DNA of 11,154 nt from Magnetovibrio sp. (GTDB taxonomy: Bacteria; Pseudomonadota; Alphaproteobacteria; Rhodospirillales; Magnetovibrionaceae): the NCBI GenBank assembly GCA_016763255.1, contig JAESUA010000090.1, positions 1 through 11,154 of the forward strand. Direction: 5' to 3'. Position numbers and translations under genes: made by a program. Shown piece after piece: positions 758 through 9,190 of the stretch (the stretch's first letter is position 1; the number at the start of each line of letters is the position of its first letter). Under the pieces are notes generated by a model. The model searched no databases and had not been told where the DNA came from. It was given only the letters and a program-made list of their open reading frames with translations.

Positions 758-1129
758 CTACTTGGTGGGCTCAAAGGTCGCTTTTTCAACCAATGTTGGA
801 TAGAAATAACCCATGGTGAAATCGGTATCGAGCGCGACCGTGCCGGTGCCTGAAACCGTGTCCCCAACCGAGACTTTTTGCTGGCTGGTGAATATCACCC
901 GGTCCGTATCGCCGGAACCGGTACCATCTTGCAGATGAATGAAATTGCGCCGCATGATGCCGTTGTTCACTTTAATGACCGTGCCGGTGATGGTGACCTG
1001 TTTGCCACCAAGGGCGATGCGATTGGCGTGAAGATCGGATACGCTCACGCTTTCAGCGGCCTCGACGCTGGCCGTCGTGATGAACGCTGTTAAGGCCAAG
1101 GCAACGAGGGAATTGATTGATGATTTCAT
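758..1129 (-). CDS. Small exported OB-fold protein (NrfJ-like)
   Basis: This encodes a 123-residue protein with an N-terminal signal peptide: a short basic start, a hydrophobic core at about residues 7-20 and a probable cleavage after VEA (22-24). The mature part looks like a small single-domain OB-fold: beta-rich GKQVTITGTVIKV (42-54), the signature NFIHLQDGTG (62-71), a VxVGDTVSGTGTV strand pair (86-98) and DTDFTMGYFYPTLVEKA (101-117). The N-(F/W)-IHLQDG-(T/S)-G block with a C-terminal D-x-DF-x-x-GY-x-Y segment is seen in small periplasmic proteins often annotated as OB-fold or DNA-binding, some beside multihaem cytochrome genes; no cytochrome gene is nearby here. The ATG has an AGGAAAA ribosome site at 1134-1140. 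A run of eight C bases (plus strand) abuts the stop codon but lies outside the coding frame. The biochemical role is unknown. Confidence 0.82.
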   Translation of the reverse strand: MKSSINSLVALALTAFITTASVEAAESVSVSDLHANRIALGGKQVTITGTVIKVNNGIMRRNFIHLQDGTGSGDTDRVIFTSQQKVSVGDTVSGTGTVALDTDFTMGYFYPTLVEKATFEPTK

Positions 1130-3027: not shown

Positions 3028-4404
3028 ATGTCCGAACAGTGGACACCCGCGAGCTGGAGAACCAAAAAAGCCATCCAGATGCCGAATTATCCGGATCAGG
3101 CCGTTTTGGATGAAGTTGAGCAGCGCATTGGGAATTTTCCGCCGCTGGTCTTTGCCGGTGAAGCGCGCAAGCTGAAAAGCAAATTGGCTGATGTTGCCCA
3201 AGGCAAAGCCTTTTTGCTGCAAGGTGGCGATTGCGCCGAAAGTTTTGCCGAATTTCATCCCGACAACATTCGCGATACCTTCCGCGTGTTGTTGCAGATG
3301 GCCATCGTTTTGACCTATGGCGCGGCTTTGCCGGTGGTTAAGGTCGGCCGTATGGCGGGCCAATTCGCCAAGCCGCGTTCGGCCGATACCGAAACCATCG
3401 ATGGTGTGGAACTGCCGTCCTATCGTGGCGACATGGTCAACGGTATGGAGTTCACCGAAAAAGCCCGTATTCCCGATCCCGAACGCTTGGTCCAAGCCTT
3501 CAATCAGTCGGCGGCAACGCTCAACCTTTTGCGCGCCTTTGCCTCGGGTGGTTTTGCCGATTTGCACAAGGTGCAGCGCTGGAACCTGGGGTTTGTCAAA
3601 GACAGCCCGTTTGGCGAGCGCTATCGCGATATGGCGGTGCGCATCCAGGAATCACTCGACTTTATGGCGGCATGCGGCATGAACTCGCAGACCACCAAGC
3701 ATATCCGTGAAACCTCGTTTTTCACCTCGCACGAAGCTTTGTTGCTGAACTACGAACAGAGCATGACCCGCGTCGATTCCCTGACGGACGAGTGGTACGA
3801 CACTTCGGCGCATATGCTGTGGATCGGTGAACGCACCCGTCAATTGGATGGCGCGCACATTGAATTTTTGAAAGGTGTCGGCAACCCGGTGGGCTGCAAA
3901 GTCGGACCGTCGATGGAACCCGATGAGTTGATCCGCTTGATCGATGCGCTGAACCCGGACAACGAAGCGGGACGTTTGACCCTGATCACACGCATGGGCG
4001 CGGACAAAATCGGTAATATTTTGCCGGGCCTGATCCGGGCGGTGCAGCGCGAAGGCCGCCACGTGGTTTGGTCGTGCGATCCGATGCACTCCAACACGGT
4101 GAAAAGCTCCAGCGGTTATAAAACCCGCCACGTTGACGCCATTTTGGCCGAGGTCAAAGCCTTCTTCCAGGTGCACAAGTCTGAGGGCAGTCATGCCGGT
4201 GGGGTGCATTTCGAAATGACCGGCCAAGATGTCACCGAATGCGTTGGTGGCGGTCAGGAAATTAAGGATGCTGATCTGTCGCTGCGCTATCACACCCATT
4301 GCGACCCGCGCCTCAACGCCACCCAGGCTTTGGAACTGGCATTTTTGTTGGCCGAACAGTTAAAAGAAGAACGCATGGCCAAAGAGGTCGGCGTGGTGGG
4401 CTAA
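3028..4404 (+). CDS. aroG: Class II DAHP synthase (3-deoxy-7-phosphoheptulonate synthase)
   Basis: This 458-residue enzyme condenses phosphoenolpyruvate with erythrose 4-phosphate to DAHP, the first committed step of the shikimate pathway to aromatic amino acids. It is the plant-like class II type, recognisable along its whole length: [12 protein letters not shown] (62-73), [16 protein letters not shown] (103-118), [11 protein letters not shown] (129-139), [16 protein letters not shown] (265-280), [11 protein letters not shown] (286-296), [10 protein letters not shown] (348-357), [15 protein letters not shown] (391-405) and [12 protein letters not shown] (422-433). By comparison with characterised class II enzymes, Cys69, His354, Glu396 and Asp426 are the expected metal ligands. 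Length fits the basic class II enzyme without a fused chorismate mutase. An AAGGAA ribosome site at 3014-3019 supports the ATG. The gene ends at the terminator at 4431-4464. Feedback sensitivity cannot be read from sequence. Some annotators name this aroF or aroH. Confidence 0.95.
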
Positions 4405-4430
4405 AGCCCTAGGCCACACCTTCACAAATT

Positions 4431-4464
4431 AAAAAGAGGCCTCAAATGTGGGGCCTCTTTTTTT
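4431..4464. terminator. Bidirectional intrinsic terminator between aroG and the paralog block
   Basis: AAAAAGAGGCC (4431-4441) pairs perfectly with GGCCTCTTTTT (4452-4462) around a 10-nt loop. On the plus strand the stem runs into seven T bases (4458-4464), ending aroG. Read on the minus strand the A-run at 4431-4435 and the AAATT before it become a U-rich tail, so the same element can end the minus-strand block whose last gene stops at 4501. Confidence 0.88.
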
Positions 4465-4500
4465 GTGGAAAACCAAGCCTGTGCACCCTGCACTTATTTA

Positions 4501-5349
4501 TTACACATCTGCAATATCGAGCTGTTTGATCAAGGCATGGGCATGGGCGCACTGGTCGGGGCCATGGCGCTGAACCAGGGCAGCGGAGTGCTCGGCTGAT
4601 TTAAGCTGCGCTTTGAGTCCCTTGTACAGCCCGCGCAGCAATAAGATTGCGCCGCGTTCGTCCAGGTGCCAGTTGCGGCTGGCTTTGCCCTCGGTCGGGT
4701 AGGCGGCACATGGCGGACGATCCGCATTGATGGCATCTTGAAAAATAAGGATTTGCTTGGCGGGGTTATGGAAAAAGAGGGCAGCCTCCATCAGCACATT
4801 GTCGACCGAGGTTGAGGCGATTTTGTGTTCGTACAGGTCGTGCCACTCGAACGTATTGTCGGCGTGTTTAAGGTAACGAATGGCCGACAGACATATGTCA
4901 TGGCCGTGTTGAAAAACTTCTTCCCCAGCCATGTCTTCCAAGGCATGAAAAAGGCCCAACAACACGCGCCGAGACAGGACCTTGCCGGCCTTCAAAAGTT
5001 GCTCTGATTGGGTTGGATCGCGTGGCAGCAAATGTTCGATGCGGACCGTGATCATACGCCTAAACATGGCGTGGCGATTGTGATCAATAATTTCCAACTG
5101 GCTGCGCTGCAGGCACATCTTGTTCTGGCGATGGAAAAAACTGGGGGTGTGCTCAATGCGCTGAGCTTTGTAGTGGTTGCGAAAGCTTTCAATGGTGTCG
5201 ACGGAGAGGTTGTTGTGGTTGCGCCGAATGATGCGTAGCAGCTGATCGGAATAATCATCAATGATGGTTATGGCCATGGATTGGCATATTTGGTGGCTTG
5301 AACGCGGTGTCTGTTGGATAGCGGTTCTGGGCGCAAAGTGTGAGCTCAT
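4501..5349 (-). CDS. Unknown protein, paralog A of a three-gene family
   Basis: I do not recognise this 282-residue protein. It has no signal peptide or membrane segment and looks soluble and mainly helical; it is rich in histidine. Motifs shared with the two upstream neighbours are MAITIIDDY (25-33), FRRMITVR (96-103), LSRRVLLGLF (125-134), FEWHDL (167-172), NWHLDERG (226-233) and an LKAQL...EH...LD tail. Its last ~158 residues align without gaps to paralog C at about 40% identity by hand count. Where B and C have LPGFF it reads LLGLF. Cysteines 22, 79 and 153 coincide with cysteines in C. I chose the ATG at 5347-5349 because GAGGGA lies 6 nt upstream (5356-5361); the frame is open to a GTG at 5460, which would add 37 residues not shared with B or C. 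It is the last gene of the block, ahead of the terminator at 4431-4464. Confidence 0.8.
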   Translation of the reverse strand: MSSHFAPRTAIQQTPRSSHQICQSMAITIIDDYSDQLLRIIRRNHNNLSVDTIESFRNHYKAQRIEHTPSFFHRQNKMCLQRSQLEIIDHNRHAMFRRMITVRIEHLLPRDPTQSEQLLKAGKVLSRRVLLGLFHALEDMAGEEVFQHGHDICLSAIRYLKHADNTFEWHDLYEHKIASTSVDNVLMEAALFFHNPAKQILIFQDAINADRPPCAAYPTEGKASRNWHLDERGAILLLRGLYKGLKAQLKSAEHSAALVQRHGPDQCAHAHALIKQLDIADV

Positions 5350-5425
5350 TGTTAATCCCTCTTCGTGTTTGAAGGTGGTGCGCGGTCTCTGGATGGGGAG
5401 TTCGCCTAACCATTTGGGCACACCG

Positions 5426-5454
5426 AATGAGCGTTCAAGCCAAAAGCGTGTCAA
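5426..5454 (-). promoter_or_regulatory. Candidate promoter for paralog A
   Basis: On the minus strand a perfect TTGACA (5449-5454) is followed after 17 bp by CTCATT (5426-5431), a poor -10 match. A TGAC-TAC-GTCA palindrome (5473-5483) lies just upstream and could be an operator. The -35 is good but the -10 is not, so a separate promoter for paralog A is only possible; readthrough from B is the alternative. Confidence 0.25.
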
Positions 5455-5503
5455 CCGCACGCATGGATGAGGTGACTACGTCAATCGGGGGAGGGACAGT
5501 ACA

Positions 5504-6304
5504 TTAATCTAAGCGTTCAAGAATGAGTGCTATTTTATGGCGGTCGGCACCTTCGTGGCGTTCGGCCAAGTGTTGCCAGGCGACATTATCGTCCACGGCC
5601 TTTTTTAAATCACCGAGCAAATGTTTGGCCATGACACGCAGGGCACGCGGCGTCAGTTCCCATTGTGCGTCCGGGGCATCGGCGTAACTGATGGGGGCCA
5701 AGTGGGCGTTGGCGATTTGCACAAACCAGTCACTGCGGTGCTGCACGTCTTCGAAATGCAAGGCAATGGCATACTGTGCATCGAGGATAACGGTGTGAAC
5801 CTCGGCGTCCTGGTCGACCAAGTTCCAACCCACCGGTAGGCGGCCCTTCATGATCCGTTCAAGGGCCGTATCGCAGCGCCACTGGTAGCGTTCTAGCGCT
5901 TCGGGCCCAAGCATCATGTTGAGGCCGAGGAAAAAACCTGGAAGGATGCGCCGTGAGATGGTGCCGTGAGGGACGCTGTCAACGCCGCGTTGGATGAACA
6001 GTTGCTCAAAGCGTTTGACGATCAAGCGATCGAATGCCGGGCGTTTAATGGCATGCCACTTTAATTCTTCTTGCTCGCGGGCGGCATCGCTAAAGGCTTG
6101 CTCAAACACGCGAGTCAACAGGCCGGCTTTGGCTTGAAAGTCAATGTTGAGCTCATCGATATGGCGCTGGGACAGTGAGCCGCCATGTTTTTGAGCTTCT
6201 TCTTTGAGCCGTTCGGTGAACGTGGACACCACAACCTGGGCCATGGCACGAGAGCGCGCATGGCGGCGTTTTTGGCTGATAACTTCAGGTGATTTTGGTG
6301 TCAT
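5504..6304 (-). CDS. Unknown protein, paralog B of a three-gene family
   Basis: I do not recognise this 266-residue protein. It has no signal peptide or membrane segment and looks soluble and helical, with a basic N-terminus. It is the most divergent of the three paralogs but keeps the block order and spacing: MAQVVV (21-26), FDRLIVKRFEQLF (91-103), ISRRILPGFF (116-125), VGWNL (158-162), QWELTPRA (214-221) and LKKAV near 233, ending in LERLD. It lacks the two N-terminal-half cysteines shared by A and C and retains one near residue 144 (WRCD). The ATG at 6302-6304 has GGGGAGGA 11 nt upstream (6316-6323); the alternative GTG at 6325 lies inside or ahead of that ribosome site, so it is unlikely. 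The upstream leader carries three 13-bp repeats. The gap to paralog A is 154 nt, almost the same as the 159 nt between B and C. Confidence 0.8.
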   Translation of the reverse strand: MTPKSPEVISQKRRHARSRAMAQVVVSTFTERLKEEAQKHGGSLSQRHIDELNIDFQAKAGLLTRVFEQAFSDAAREQEELKWHAIKRPAFDRLIVKRFEQLFIQRGVDSVPHGTISRRILPGFFLGLNMMLGPEALERYQWRCDTALERIMKGRLPVGWNLVDQDAEVHTVILDAQYAIALHFEDVQHRSDWFVQIANAHLAPISYADAPDAQWELTPRALRVMAKHLLGDLKKAVDDNVAWQHLAERHEGADRHKIALILERLD

Positions 6305-6337
6305 GTGTGTGATGGTCCTCCCCACAGCCGTACGCTT

Positions 6338-6379
6338 CCCCGGTGTTTAGTCCCCCGGTATTTAGCCCCCCGTATTTAG
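6338..6379 (-). repeat. Three tandem 13-bp repeats in the leader of paralog B
   Basis: Plus-strand units are CCCCGGTGTTTAG (6338-6350), CCCCGGTATTTAG (6353-6365) and CCCCCGTATTTAG (6367-6379), with start-to-start spacing of 15 and 14 bp and one mismatch between neighbours. In the mRNA sense of paralog B each reads CTAAA-N-AC followed by a G-tract. The array ends about 14 nt upstream of B's ribosome site. Regular spacing suggests binding sites or a leader RNA element. A shorter relative, CCCCGGTTTAGC, occurs at 2974-2985 ahead of aroG. Confidence 0.7.
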
Positions 6380-6439
6380 CTCACATTATTTGACCTGTGT
6401 CGGACGGCTTTTTAGGAAACTAACGGCTCTGTGATTGCA

Positions 6440-6467
6440 AATCTATCTTAATTTGTATGGAAATCAA
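6440..6467 (-). promoter_or_regulatory. Candidate promoter for paralog B
   Basis: On the minus strand TTGATT (6462-6467) and TAGATT (6440-6445) are separated by 16 bp, each matching four of six consensus bases, and overlap the stop codon of paralog C. The resulting leader of about 130 nt would include the 13-bp repeats. Only a match by eye; an A/T-rich context makes chance matches likely. Confidence 0.28.
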
Positions 6468-7324
6468 ACCTCACTCTTGTCCAGTACTGTGACCAATGCC
6501 AACAGTGCGCGAGTTTGTTCTACACCGTATTTGGTGGCAAGTTTCTTGGCGTGTTCTTTGTCGCTCAATTGGTGCTTGAGATGTAGGAACATCCGGCGCA
6601 ACAGGCGGATCATACCGTGCTCATCCAGCATCCAATCTTTGTTGGCTGGGCCTTCAAAATGGTACTCCTGAGCATCTGCTAAGTCATTGTTAATGAGGTT
6701 CATCATCCATGTCATGCGCTTCATGGGGTTGGTGAAATGCGGCAGCAGGGCCATCATCAGGTCATCGACAGCTTCTTGGGCTTGCTCGCTTTCCAGCAGG
6801 TCTTCCCATAAAAATCCTTGATCGGTGTGTTTCATGACTTCGACCAGATCTTTGCAAATTTGGTGGCCGCGGATAAAGGCATTTTCGCCAACCATTTTTT
6901 CCATCGCCAAAAAAAATCCCGGCAACAGGCGACGCGACAGGTAGGTTCCGCGCTCATCAAGCCCATTCAAGGGGGGGAACAAGTTGACAAAACGTGTGGT
7001 GATGATCCGCTTGAAAGGTTCACGACGGGTGGTCGGGTCGAAAACTTCTTGTTCGCAACGCACCAGGCAATTTTGATAATGGGTGCGGATCATCGGTTCT
7101 TGATCTCGGATCGCACCGTCTTTGTAGGTGTTCAGGAAAGTCTGGATGTCAACCGAGCTGAGACCTTGCGTTGATTGCTCGATCATGGAGATTAATTTTT
7201 CGGTGTAATCATCCAAAATCGCAAAGGCCATGTTCTTACACTGTCGGCTGCCGCTGGCCTTGTCGCCTGTCTCACCGTTTTGTGCACCTGCCTGTGTGTC
7301 TTTGGAGGTCATTGCATTCATCAT
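6464..7324 (-). CDS. Unknown protein, paralog C of a three-gene family
   Basis: I do not recognise this 286-residue protein, the first gene of the minus-strand block and divergent from nadE. It is soluble-looking and mostly helical, with a polar low-complexity N-terminus of about 28 residues before the conserved part. Shared blocks are NMAFAILDDY (31-40), FKRIITTRFVNLF (104-116), LSRRLLPGFF (129-138), AMEKMVGE (140-147), FLWEDL (171-176), DWMLDEHG (230-237) and a charged LKHQL...EH...LD tail. Cysteines 29, 86 and 157 match paralog A; Cys90 is its own. I chose the ATG at 7322-7324 because GGGAG (7334-7338) lies 9 nt upstream; ATG 7342 and GTG 7372 are in frame upstream but lack a well-spaced ribosome site, and ATG 7321 or 7312 are also possible. 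The exact start is uncertain by a few residues; the family relation to A and B is clear. Confidence 0.8.
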   Translation of the reverse strand: MMNAMTSKDTQAGAQNGETGDKASGSRQCKNMAFAILDDYTEKLISMIEQSTQGLSSVDIQTFLNTYKDGAIRDQEPMIRTHYQNCLVRCEQEVFDPTTRREPFKRIITTRFVNLFPPLNGLDERGTYLSRRLLPGFFLAMEKMVGENAFIRGHQICKDLVEVMKHTDQGFLWEDLLESEQAQEAVDDLMMALLPHFTNPMKRMTWMMNLINNDLADAQEYHFEGPANKDWMLDEHGMIRLLRRMFLHLKHQLSDKEHAKKLATKYGVEQTRALLALVTVLDKSEV

Positions 7325-7373
7325 TTTTCCACGCTCCCGCATCGGTCTTTTTTTCTTTTTATTTGGTGACACT

Positions 7374-7478
7374 CCCCCAAGTGCTTCATCGCCGTAGATA
7401 GACTAGCTCAAATTACGTATATGGCAGAAGGAAAAGCTTTAAAACCCCCAAGTTTCTCGCGTTGACAGGGGTGGGGGT
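7374..7478. repeat. Repeated C5/G5 motifs in the divergent C-nadE region
   Basis: CCCCCAAGT occurs twice in the same orientation (7374-7382 and 7445-7453). The second copy is also half of a perfect 7-bp inverted repeat, ACCCCCA (7444-7450) and TGGGGGT (7472-7478), which flanks the nadE -35 box at 7462-7467. This placement would suit a repressor shared by nadE and paralog C, but no known regulator site is recognised. I saw no convincing promoter for paralog C here. Confidence 0.4.
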
Positions 7479-7490
7479 GCGGCATACCCT
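7462..7490 (+). promoter_or_regulatory. Promoter of the nadE-gltX-cysS operon
   Basis: A perfect -35 TTGACA (7462-7467) is separated by 17 bp from TACCCT (7485-7490), which keeps the TA and final T of the -10 box. Transcription would begin near 7497, leaving a leader of about 38 nt before nadE. The spacer is unusually G-rich (GGGGTGGGGG). Confidence 0.6.
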
Positions 7491-7534
7491 CCGGCCTTGT
7501 ACACCTCCTCACCACTGAGCGTTGAATAGGCTCT

Positions 7535-9190
7535 ATGACTGAACAATTGACCATTGCTATTGCCCAAATCAATCCCACCGTGGGAGACATCAAGGCCAAC
7601 GTTGAATTGGTTCGAGATGCACGCGTGAAAGCACACGAACTTGGCTGCAATCTGGTGATCACCGGCGAACTGGTGATTTCCGGCTATCCCCCTGAAGATT
7701 TGGTTTTGAAGGGCAGTTTTCAAGAAGCGGTTAAGAGTGCAGTGCAGGGCTTGGCGGTTTTGACCGCTGATGGTGGTCCGGGATTGCTGATCAGTGCGCC
7801 GTGGATGGAAGACGGGGACCTCTATAATGCGGCCCTTTTGTTGGATGGTGGAAAAATCAAAGCCGTGGTGCCGAAGTACGCCTTGCCCAATTATGGTGTG
7901 TTCGATGAAAAACGCCTGTTTAGCCCCGGCGGCAAGCCCGGCGCGGTCAGGTTTCGCGGCATAAAACTGGGTGTGATGACCTGTGAAGATATGTGGGTGC
8001 CCGATGTTGCGGGCTCTTTAATGAAGGATGGTGCGGAGGTCCTTTTGGTGCTCAACGGCTCGCCCTTTGAAATGGACAAGCCGCATGTGCGCATCGATCT
8101 GGCTCGCGAACGGGTGCGCGAAACCGGTTTGCCGTTGATTTATGCCAACCAGGTCGGTGGTCAGGATGAACTGGTGTTTGATGGCGCGTCGTTCGTCTTG
8201 GATGAAAGCGGTGCGGTGACGACCCAAATGGCCGCCTTTGAAAGTCAGATCACCGCGGTGGCGTTCACCTGGGAAAATGACACCCTTACCCCTGTGTCAG
8301 GCCTGATGGTGGAGCCGATGAGCGAGGACGAAAGCATCTACAAGGCGCTGGTCCTGGGGCTCAAAGACTATGTAAATAAAAACAAGTTTCCCGGTGTAAT
8401 GATCGGCATGTCGGGTGGCGTCGACAGCGCCATCACGGCGGCCGTAGCGGTCGATGCCTTGGGCAGTGAACGCGTGCACTTGGTGATGATGCCCTCACCC
8501 TACACCTCCAAAGACAGCTTGGAAGACGCCGCTGAGGCCGCCACGTTGCTTGGGGCAAAACTTGATAATGTGCCCATCAAGCCCGCCATGGATGCCTTTG
8601 AGGGCTTGCTCAAAGACATGTTCGTGGCGCACGTAGCCGACACCACCGAAGAAAATATCCAGGCCCGTTCGCGCGGTTTGATCTTGATGGCGATGTCCAA
8701 CAAGTTTGGGCATATGGTGGTTTCCACCGGCAATAAATCGGAAATGTCGGTCGGCTATGCAACGCTTTATGGTGATATGTGCGGTGGTTTTAACGTCTTG
8801 AAGGACGTCTACAAAACCCGCGTCTACAGCCTGTGTAAATGGCGTAATGAGCATCATGACAACACCCTGATAGGCCCCAAAGGCACGGCGGTGCCGCAGC
8901 GTATCATCACCAAAGCCCCCAGCGCCGAACTGAAACCCGATCAAACGGACCAAGACACCTTGCCGGCTTATGATGATCTGGATGACATGCTGTGGTGTTT
9001 GATCGAACAAGAAATGTCGGTGCGTAACATCGCGAAGCGTGGTCATGCGCTGGAAACCGTCGAAAGAGTCTGGCGCATGCTGGACCGGGCGGAGTACAAA
9101 CGTCGTCAAGCGCCTCCCGGCGTAAAAATCACATCGCGGGCGTTCGGTCGTGACCGACGCTATCCGCTGACCAATGGATTTACTGCATGA
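7535..9190 (+). CDS. nadE: Glutamine-dependent NAD+ synthetase
   Basis: This 551-residue two-domain enzyme makes NAD+ from deamido-NAD, ATP and glutamine, the last step of NAD synthesis. Residues 1 to about 260 form a nitrilase-type glutaminase that releases ammonia, with a visible catalytic triad: Glu45 (GELVISGYPPEDL), Lys114 (VPKYALPNYGVF) and Cys150 (GVMTCEDMW). Residues about 270-551 form the ATP-dependent synthetase, with the pyrophosphatase loop SGGVDS (293-298), STGNKSE (397-403), the glycine-rich YGDMCGGFN (412-420) and APSAELKPDQTDQD (451-464). All key residues are intact. The length fits the fused, glutamine-using bacterial form, not the short ammonia-dependent one. The ribosome site is weak (TAGG near 7525). 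Its stop overlaps the gltX start as ATGA, pointing to translational coupling. Confidence 0.96.
   Translation: MTEQLTIAIAQINPTVGDIKANVELVRDARVKAHELGCNLVITGELVISGYPPEDLVLKGSFQEAVKSAVQGLAVLTADGGPGLLISAPWMEDGDLYNAALLLDGGKIKAVVPKYALPNYGVFDEKRLFSPGGKPGAVRFRGIKLGVMTCEDMWVPDVAGSLMKDGAEVLLVLNGSPFEMDKPHVRIDLARERVRETGLPLIYANQVGGQDELVFDGASFVLDESGAVTTQMAAFESQITAVAFTWENDTLTPVSGLMVEPMSEDESIYKALVLGLKDYVNKNKFPGVMIGMSGGVDSAITAAVAVDALGSERVHLVMMPSPYTSKDSLEDAAEAATLLGAKLDNVPIKPAMDAFEGLLKDMFVAHVADTTEENIQARSRGLILMAMSNKFGHMVVSTGNKSEMSVGYATLYGDMCGGFNVLKDVYKTRVYSLCKWRNEHHDNTLIGPKGTAVPQRIITKAPSAELKPDQTDQDTLPAYDDLDDMLWCLIEQEMSVRNIAKRGHALETVERVWRMLDRAEYKRRQAPPGVKITSRAFGRDRRYPLTNGFTA

Follow-up and report, generated by a model that had tools for sequence, protein, structure and literature searches.

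A family of predicted mainly helical proteins encoded opposite nadE, with a possible role as a signalling output module

Background

Between the housekeeping genes aroG and nadE of a Magnetovibrio sp. (draft genome of 2.7 Mb, 67% complete) lie three consecutive minus-strand genes which a first-pass annotation, made from the letters of an 11,154-nucleotide stretch (the whole of which is called the window here), could assign to no protein family and put forward as a possible undescribed system. The locus therefore raises the questions of whether the three genes belong together, how widely their family is spread and what its proteins might do.

Three paralogous genes between aroG and nadE

The genes, termed C (6464..7324, -), B (5504..6304, -) and A (4501..5349, -), are open reading frames encoding true homologues: in single pairwise BLASTP comparisons A and C are 36% identical over 267 amino acids (E 1e-54), B and C 23% (E 1e-14) and A and B 22% (E 3e-8). 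Translation is more likely to start at ATG 5349 (A), 6304 (B) and 7324 (C) than at the GTG codons of the open reading frame list, and for B and C these starts fit the database copies of 266 and 286 amino acids, respectively. The near-identical spacings that had first drawn attention to the genes are exact, with 101/96/98 residues (A/B/C) from Met-Ala to SRR, 101/98/101 from SRR to the C-terminal Trp and 55/51/55 from there to the end. They are kept because the proteins are homologous, and so provide no independent evidence.

The block does lie between aroG (class-II DAHP synthase; 3028..4404, +) and nadE (NAD synthase; 7535..9190, +), opposed in direction to both. Between A and aroG, where a terminator had been proposed, lies a terminator-like two-way hairpin (4425..4472), which folds with -21.3 kcal/mol (z -4.9) on one strand and -17.1 kcal/mol (z -5.0) on the other and is not among the results of a simple terminator scan. 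The genes flanking the block in the window are aroG, a pyridine nucleotide-disulphide oxidoreductase gene, nadE and gltX; none of them encodes a histidine kinase, and no Rfam match was found in 4300-7700. The divergent intergenic region from C to nadE (7325..7534) contains a TTGACA-like element common to several relatives (alignment, judged by eye), which may be the nadE promoter. Elsewhere in the window, a small gene at 758-1129 (-) encodes 123 amino acids, begins, by eye, like a signal peptide and has no Pfam match.

Database searches and predicted structures

The Pfam profile search that the first-pass annotation had suggested bears out its impression of an unrecognised family, with no match at E < 0.1 for A, B or C. 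NCBIfam likewise gave none up to E 1, and no helix-turn-helix family model of either library matches them. PHROGs gave one weak match (E 0.054), and a profile search of PDB sequences with alignments A3 and A6 yielded 0 matches up to E 1. Nothing matching B was found in plasmid records. When 52 diverse members were compared with Pfam, the receiver domain was the sole family matched by more than one of them (8 fusions, see below), and two members had one weak match each. No description of the family was found in titles and abstract beginnings, which leaves room for a mention inside a paper, and none was found for the locus tags BEN30_09335, CCC_02594, CU669_15520 and H261_00820. The A/B/C family is real and, as far as these searches show, undescribed.

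Several candidate identities were rejected. A known anti-phage defence protein would have to match a PADLOC model with confidence, and PADLOC gave a single weak match to C (E 0.029, 11.7 bits) and none to A or B. The relative P0011 is named DUF1722 (PF08349, YbgA) by one source, but its Pfam match (E 0.017) reaches 15.8 of the 22.5 bits of the gathering cut-off and A, B and C have no match at all, so that we treat the name as mistaken. HEPN toxins have a conserved catalytic R..H motif; none of the 30 columns that are conserved in 75% or more of 50 members is a His, and HEPN chains appeared in the structure comparison only among tied rows of low Z. Mg2046 of Magnetospirillum was considered because it has been called a novel redox regulator, but according to the portion of PMC6607277 that describes it, it combines CRP_ED and HTH_Crp_2 domains in 240 amino acids and does not belong to this family.

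Structure prediction had been proposed for all three proteins, singly and as mixed complexes; it was carried out for C and for the core of B. The AlphaFold models of whole C (pLDDT 86) and of the B core alone (pLDDT 92.2, pTM 0.88; ten helices) are mainly helical, and in the comparisons made neither gave a significant match to a solved fold; that a fold family is missing from the VIA lists is, however, no ground for excluding it. Against viral models, Foldseek returned none at E <= 0.001 (best 0.04).

Distribution and copy number

Searched with single sequences, the protein database yielded 21 matches for C and 74 for B, with no Pfam domain listed on any of them; C as query matched in 71 of 100 genomes, its own included. 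With profile A3, 194 of 297 sampled genomes of the order have the family, compared with 12 of 385 genomes at the level of the class, 3 of these 12 being from the same order; with profile A6, 3 of 299 genomes of the phylum match, all 3 from the same order. The family is thus rare outside its order, to which studied magnetic bacteria belong and in which about two thirds of the sampled genomes carry it; it has neither a model in the libraries searched nor a solved relative. Among the named members are proteins of Paramagnetospirillum, Magnetospirillum and Phaeospirillum, the Paramagnetospirillum magneticum protein being P0113.

Some genomes hold several copies: six were found in 3 of 8 genomes searched again, and seven genomes of the Magnetospirillum-like family f22 have 3 to 6 each. 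The extra f22 copies that were viewed (L066-L069 in G540; L074, L076 and L078 in G485) lie in unrelated contexts. The window's own genome has a fourth member (L127:3355-4263, -, contig C362) which is without the SRR motif, and 15 of 18 genomes of the window's family show a comparable, separate and weaker match. The 11 fourth-copy loci viewed are mostly near genes for oligopeptidase F and a DUF3108 protein, and 8 of them have pnt transhydrogenase genes (Pfam names checked in L129). Apparent 'fusions' of 660-900 residues (L085, L086, L087, L089, L090) were discarded as what seems, by eye, to be read-through of neighbouring genes in the wrong frame. The simple gene caller yields spurious open reading frames in GC-rich DNA, and the counts over 105 loci given below come from six-frame searches.

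The C-B pair and the odd copy A

In a quick tree of 87 rows, with SH-aLRT support only, B falls into a clade of 48 rows (support 98), the widespread type, and C into one of 20 rows from the genome families f1, f6, f8, f9 and f26, the support of which (84) is below the starred level. The two types share a layout: the C-type gene adjoins nadE, with the B-type gene beyond it, both in the f1 loci and in L035-L038, and in L027, L030 and L034 the B-type gene alone adjoins nadE. As the layout is common to several genome families, the C-B pair looks old.

A is placed within the f1 C-type rows (support 99) on an end branch of 1.12, compared with 0.22 for C, a placement to be read with the caution that the tree tool flagged its letter make-up as unusual and that long rows are less surely placed. 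Its closest relatives are 36% identical, no third full gene was found at this place in the other 17 genomes of the window's family, and A itself turned up in a single genome. The idea of a three-gene system is therefore not supported; what genomes share is B alone or the C-B pair, to which A has been added as a divergent extra paralogue.

A conserved core with a variable N-terminal part

The members vary in their N-terminal part, which in C is helical and in some lineages is extended and rich in Pro and Ala, but share a conserved C-terminal core. This core spans about 185 residues and follows the pattern R..SRR..G..W..F..RxxW..N..W. Apart from the start Met, eight columns reach a conservation of 94% or more among 50 other members; they include the R and the W of RxxW, which all 50 have. 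A has Gln (236) for this otherwise invariant Arg and Ile (239) for the Trp (numbering of the 319-residue open reading frame starting at 5460). It keeps 21 of the 30 conserved columns, as against 28 in B, 27 in C and a median of 26; since two other rows also keep just 21, A is an outlier in which residues it has lost and not in their number. The isoelectric point of the family part has a median of 6.56 and exceeds 8 in 33% of 314 sequences, that of A being 9.1; this mostly near-neutral charge does not favour general DNA binding.

Receiver fusions and the proposed function

The first handle on the function of the family is provided by relatives in which a receiver domain (PF00072) is followed by the family core (order judged by eye). 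Such fusions make up 11 of the 120 matches listed (135 in all), a ratio which is no frequency, as the query alignment A5 itself held one receiver fusion. They were accepted on the strength of Pfam and of independent database proteins. Unlike response regulators, A, B and C have no receiver according to Pfam, which does find one in fused relatives such as L105 and L107. Among the genomes searched, fusions were seen only in family f11 (2 of 60 relatives, and G091); the 10 other database fusions come from hosts not assigned to a genome family.

For comparison, 13 fusion sequences were used (11 database proteins, L053 and L107; L105 equals P0116). At the position which we take to be phospho-accepting, 11 of them have Asp and 2 (P0214 and L107:3673-4689) Glu, as judged by eye, and the receivers of these two might possibly be locked on.

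Two fusion loci include a CHASE2 histidine kinase gene. L105 (7598-11863) encodes, on the same strand, the receiver-core protein, a FecR protein and a CHASE2-PAS-HisKA-HATPase kinase, and L053 (5034-9701) has, by eye, the same gene order with a CHASE2 histidine kinase. In L107, the third fusion locus, no histidine kinase was recognised among the genes. Such a row makes up a two-component system, and it recalls the BiofilmReg operon of Burkholderia, for which the part of PMC5192318 dealing with its genes gives a response regulator, a FecR protein and a CHASE2 histidine kinase, and L105 matches it in the types of gene and in their sequence along the DNA. In that account, however, the Burkholderia regulator ends in trans_reg_C, whereas the output of L105 is the family core, and the Burkholderia FecR protein also has LysM.

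These fusions suggest a signalling role, and we assign a probability of roughly 0.45 to the reading, the best supported of those considered, that the family core is a lineage-specific signalling output module, fused or free-standing, acting by binding another protein. The fusions are its one direct line of evidence. In one lineage a phospho-receiver would have replaced the N-terminal part to give a response regulator, which two loci encode next to a CHASE2 histidine kinase. Copies that stand alone, including A, B and C, would instead use the N-terminal part for sensing or dimerisation. C and B, as an old co-oriented pair, would probably form one operon and may work together, and A, a fast-evolving extra copy without the Arg/Trp pair, may be a modified or regulatory subunit. 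Several observations speak against an output module: the restriction of the fusions to f11 in the genomes searched, the want of any recognised signalling gene beside most members viewed, the basic charge of A and a third of the members, the two Glu receivers and the locus L107 with its missing kinase.

The neighbourhood of nadE

A survey of synteny with aroG and nadE had also been proposed, and it revealed a striking arrangement. nadE occurs in 51 of the 105 stretches scanned, all of which hold a family member and were picked by hand, several of them for copies elsewhere, so that the counts are no prevalences. In these 51 loci, which span 17 genome families, the family gene is divergent from nadE in all 51 and within 1.5 kb of it in 50. 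A nicotinate-phosphoribosyltransferase-like gene is present in 15, and in L101 the family gene lies directly between it and nadE. The genes usually follow one another, some being absent, as gor, aroG, transferase, family gene (opposite), nadE, gltX and cysS, where the names gor and cysS are our assignments.

This suggests a second reading, in which the proteins would control nadE and the transferase-like gene by binding either the enzyme or its promoter, with C, B and A tuning NAD supply. The argument is one of position throughout, and it includes the fourth copy type, which is one gene from pntAA in L129, L131, L135 and L137. Regulator genes near NAD genes are familiar from NrtR, NadQ and NiaR, but A, B and C match no NCBIfam (up to E 1) or Pfam (E < 0.1) family, in searches against each library as a whole. 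The position can be explained by stable housekeeping gene order and vertical inheritance, the loci were no random draw, and 54 of the 105 have no nadE in the stretch. Ten control genomes of the order weaken the inference from position further (8 without a match to profile A3, G093 without a match to C, and G055 with one family match genome-wide at E 2.8e-20). In 4 of them the transferase gene precedes nadE by 20-210 bases and in 1 aroG stands directly before it, so that the cluster is stable and closed up without the family gene; in the remaining 5 none of the six query genes was found upstream of nadE, and the nadE stretches of all ten, including the 1.5 kb around nadE, gave no family signal (best E 3.1). 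In addition, no conserved inverted repeat or palindrome was seen by eye in the gap between nadE and C, in the part viewed of an intergenic alignment of 16 stretches. Control of NAD synthesis is, in our view, an attractive but unlikely reading; since the family gene keeps its position next to nadE so stably, an involvement in NAD or redox control is directly testable, e.g. in Paramagnetospirillum magneticum.

Rather improbable is the broader picture combining both lines, in which the core would have a new helical fold and represent a novel kind of output module tying two-component or metabolic signals to NAD supply throughout the order, with C-B pairs and with A altered at Arg/Trp.

As a separate observation, the best NCBIfam match of the transferase-like gene (L035:6925-8073, L106:6674-7951) reaches 127 bits against a cut-off of 378, and the gene may represent a distinct subfamily.

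Structural and DNA-binding alternatives

The mainly helical models without significant match, the long Pro/Ala-rich extensions, the tandem pairs and the up to six copies per genome would also suit structural or scaffolding proteins, forming oligomers or assemblies at the cell pole or membrane, with the receiver fusion as a late side-use. The conserved polar and aromatic residues of the core, however, suggest a specific site, and we regard such a role as rather improbable. A new type of DNA-binding transcription regulator, controlling its own expression from the intergenic region shared by nadE and C, is very improbable. In its favour, response regulators usually consist of a receiver and a C-terminal output, and most of them bind DNA; regulators are also often encoded divergently from their targets. 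Against it stand the mostly near-neutral family part, the want of a palindrome and of helix-turn-helix matches reported above, and the finding of no more than a single weak match to an AraC-regulator N-terminal domain among the 52 diverse members (E 0.0007).

The Pro/Ala-rich N-terminal extensions of L045, L048, L108 and L110 have in common, by eye, short motifs of the type SEVL/SEVI and, in part of them, RAEI, which could perhaps be docking peptides.
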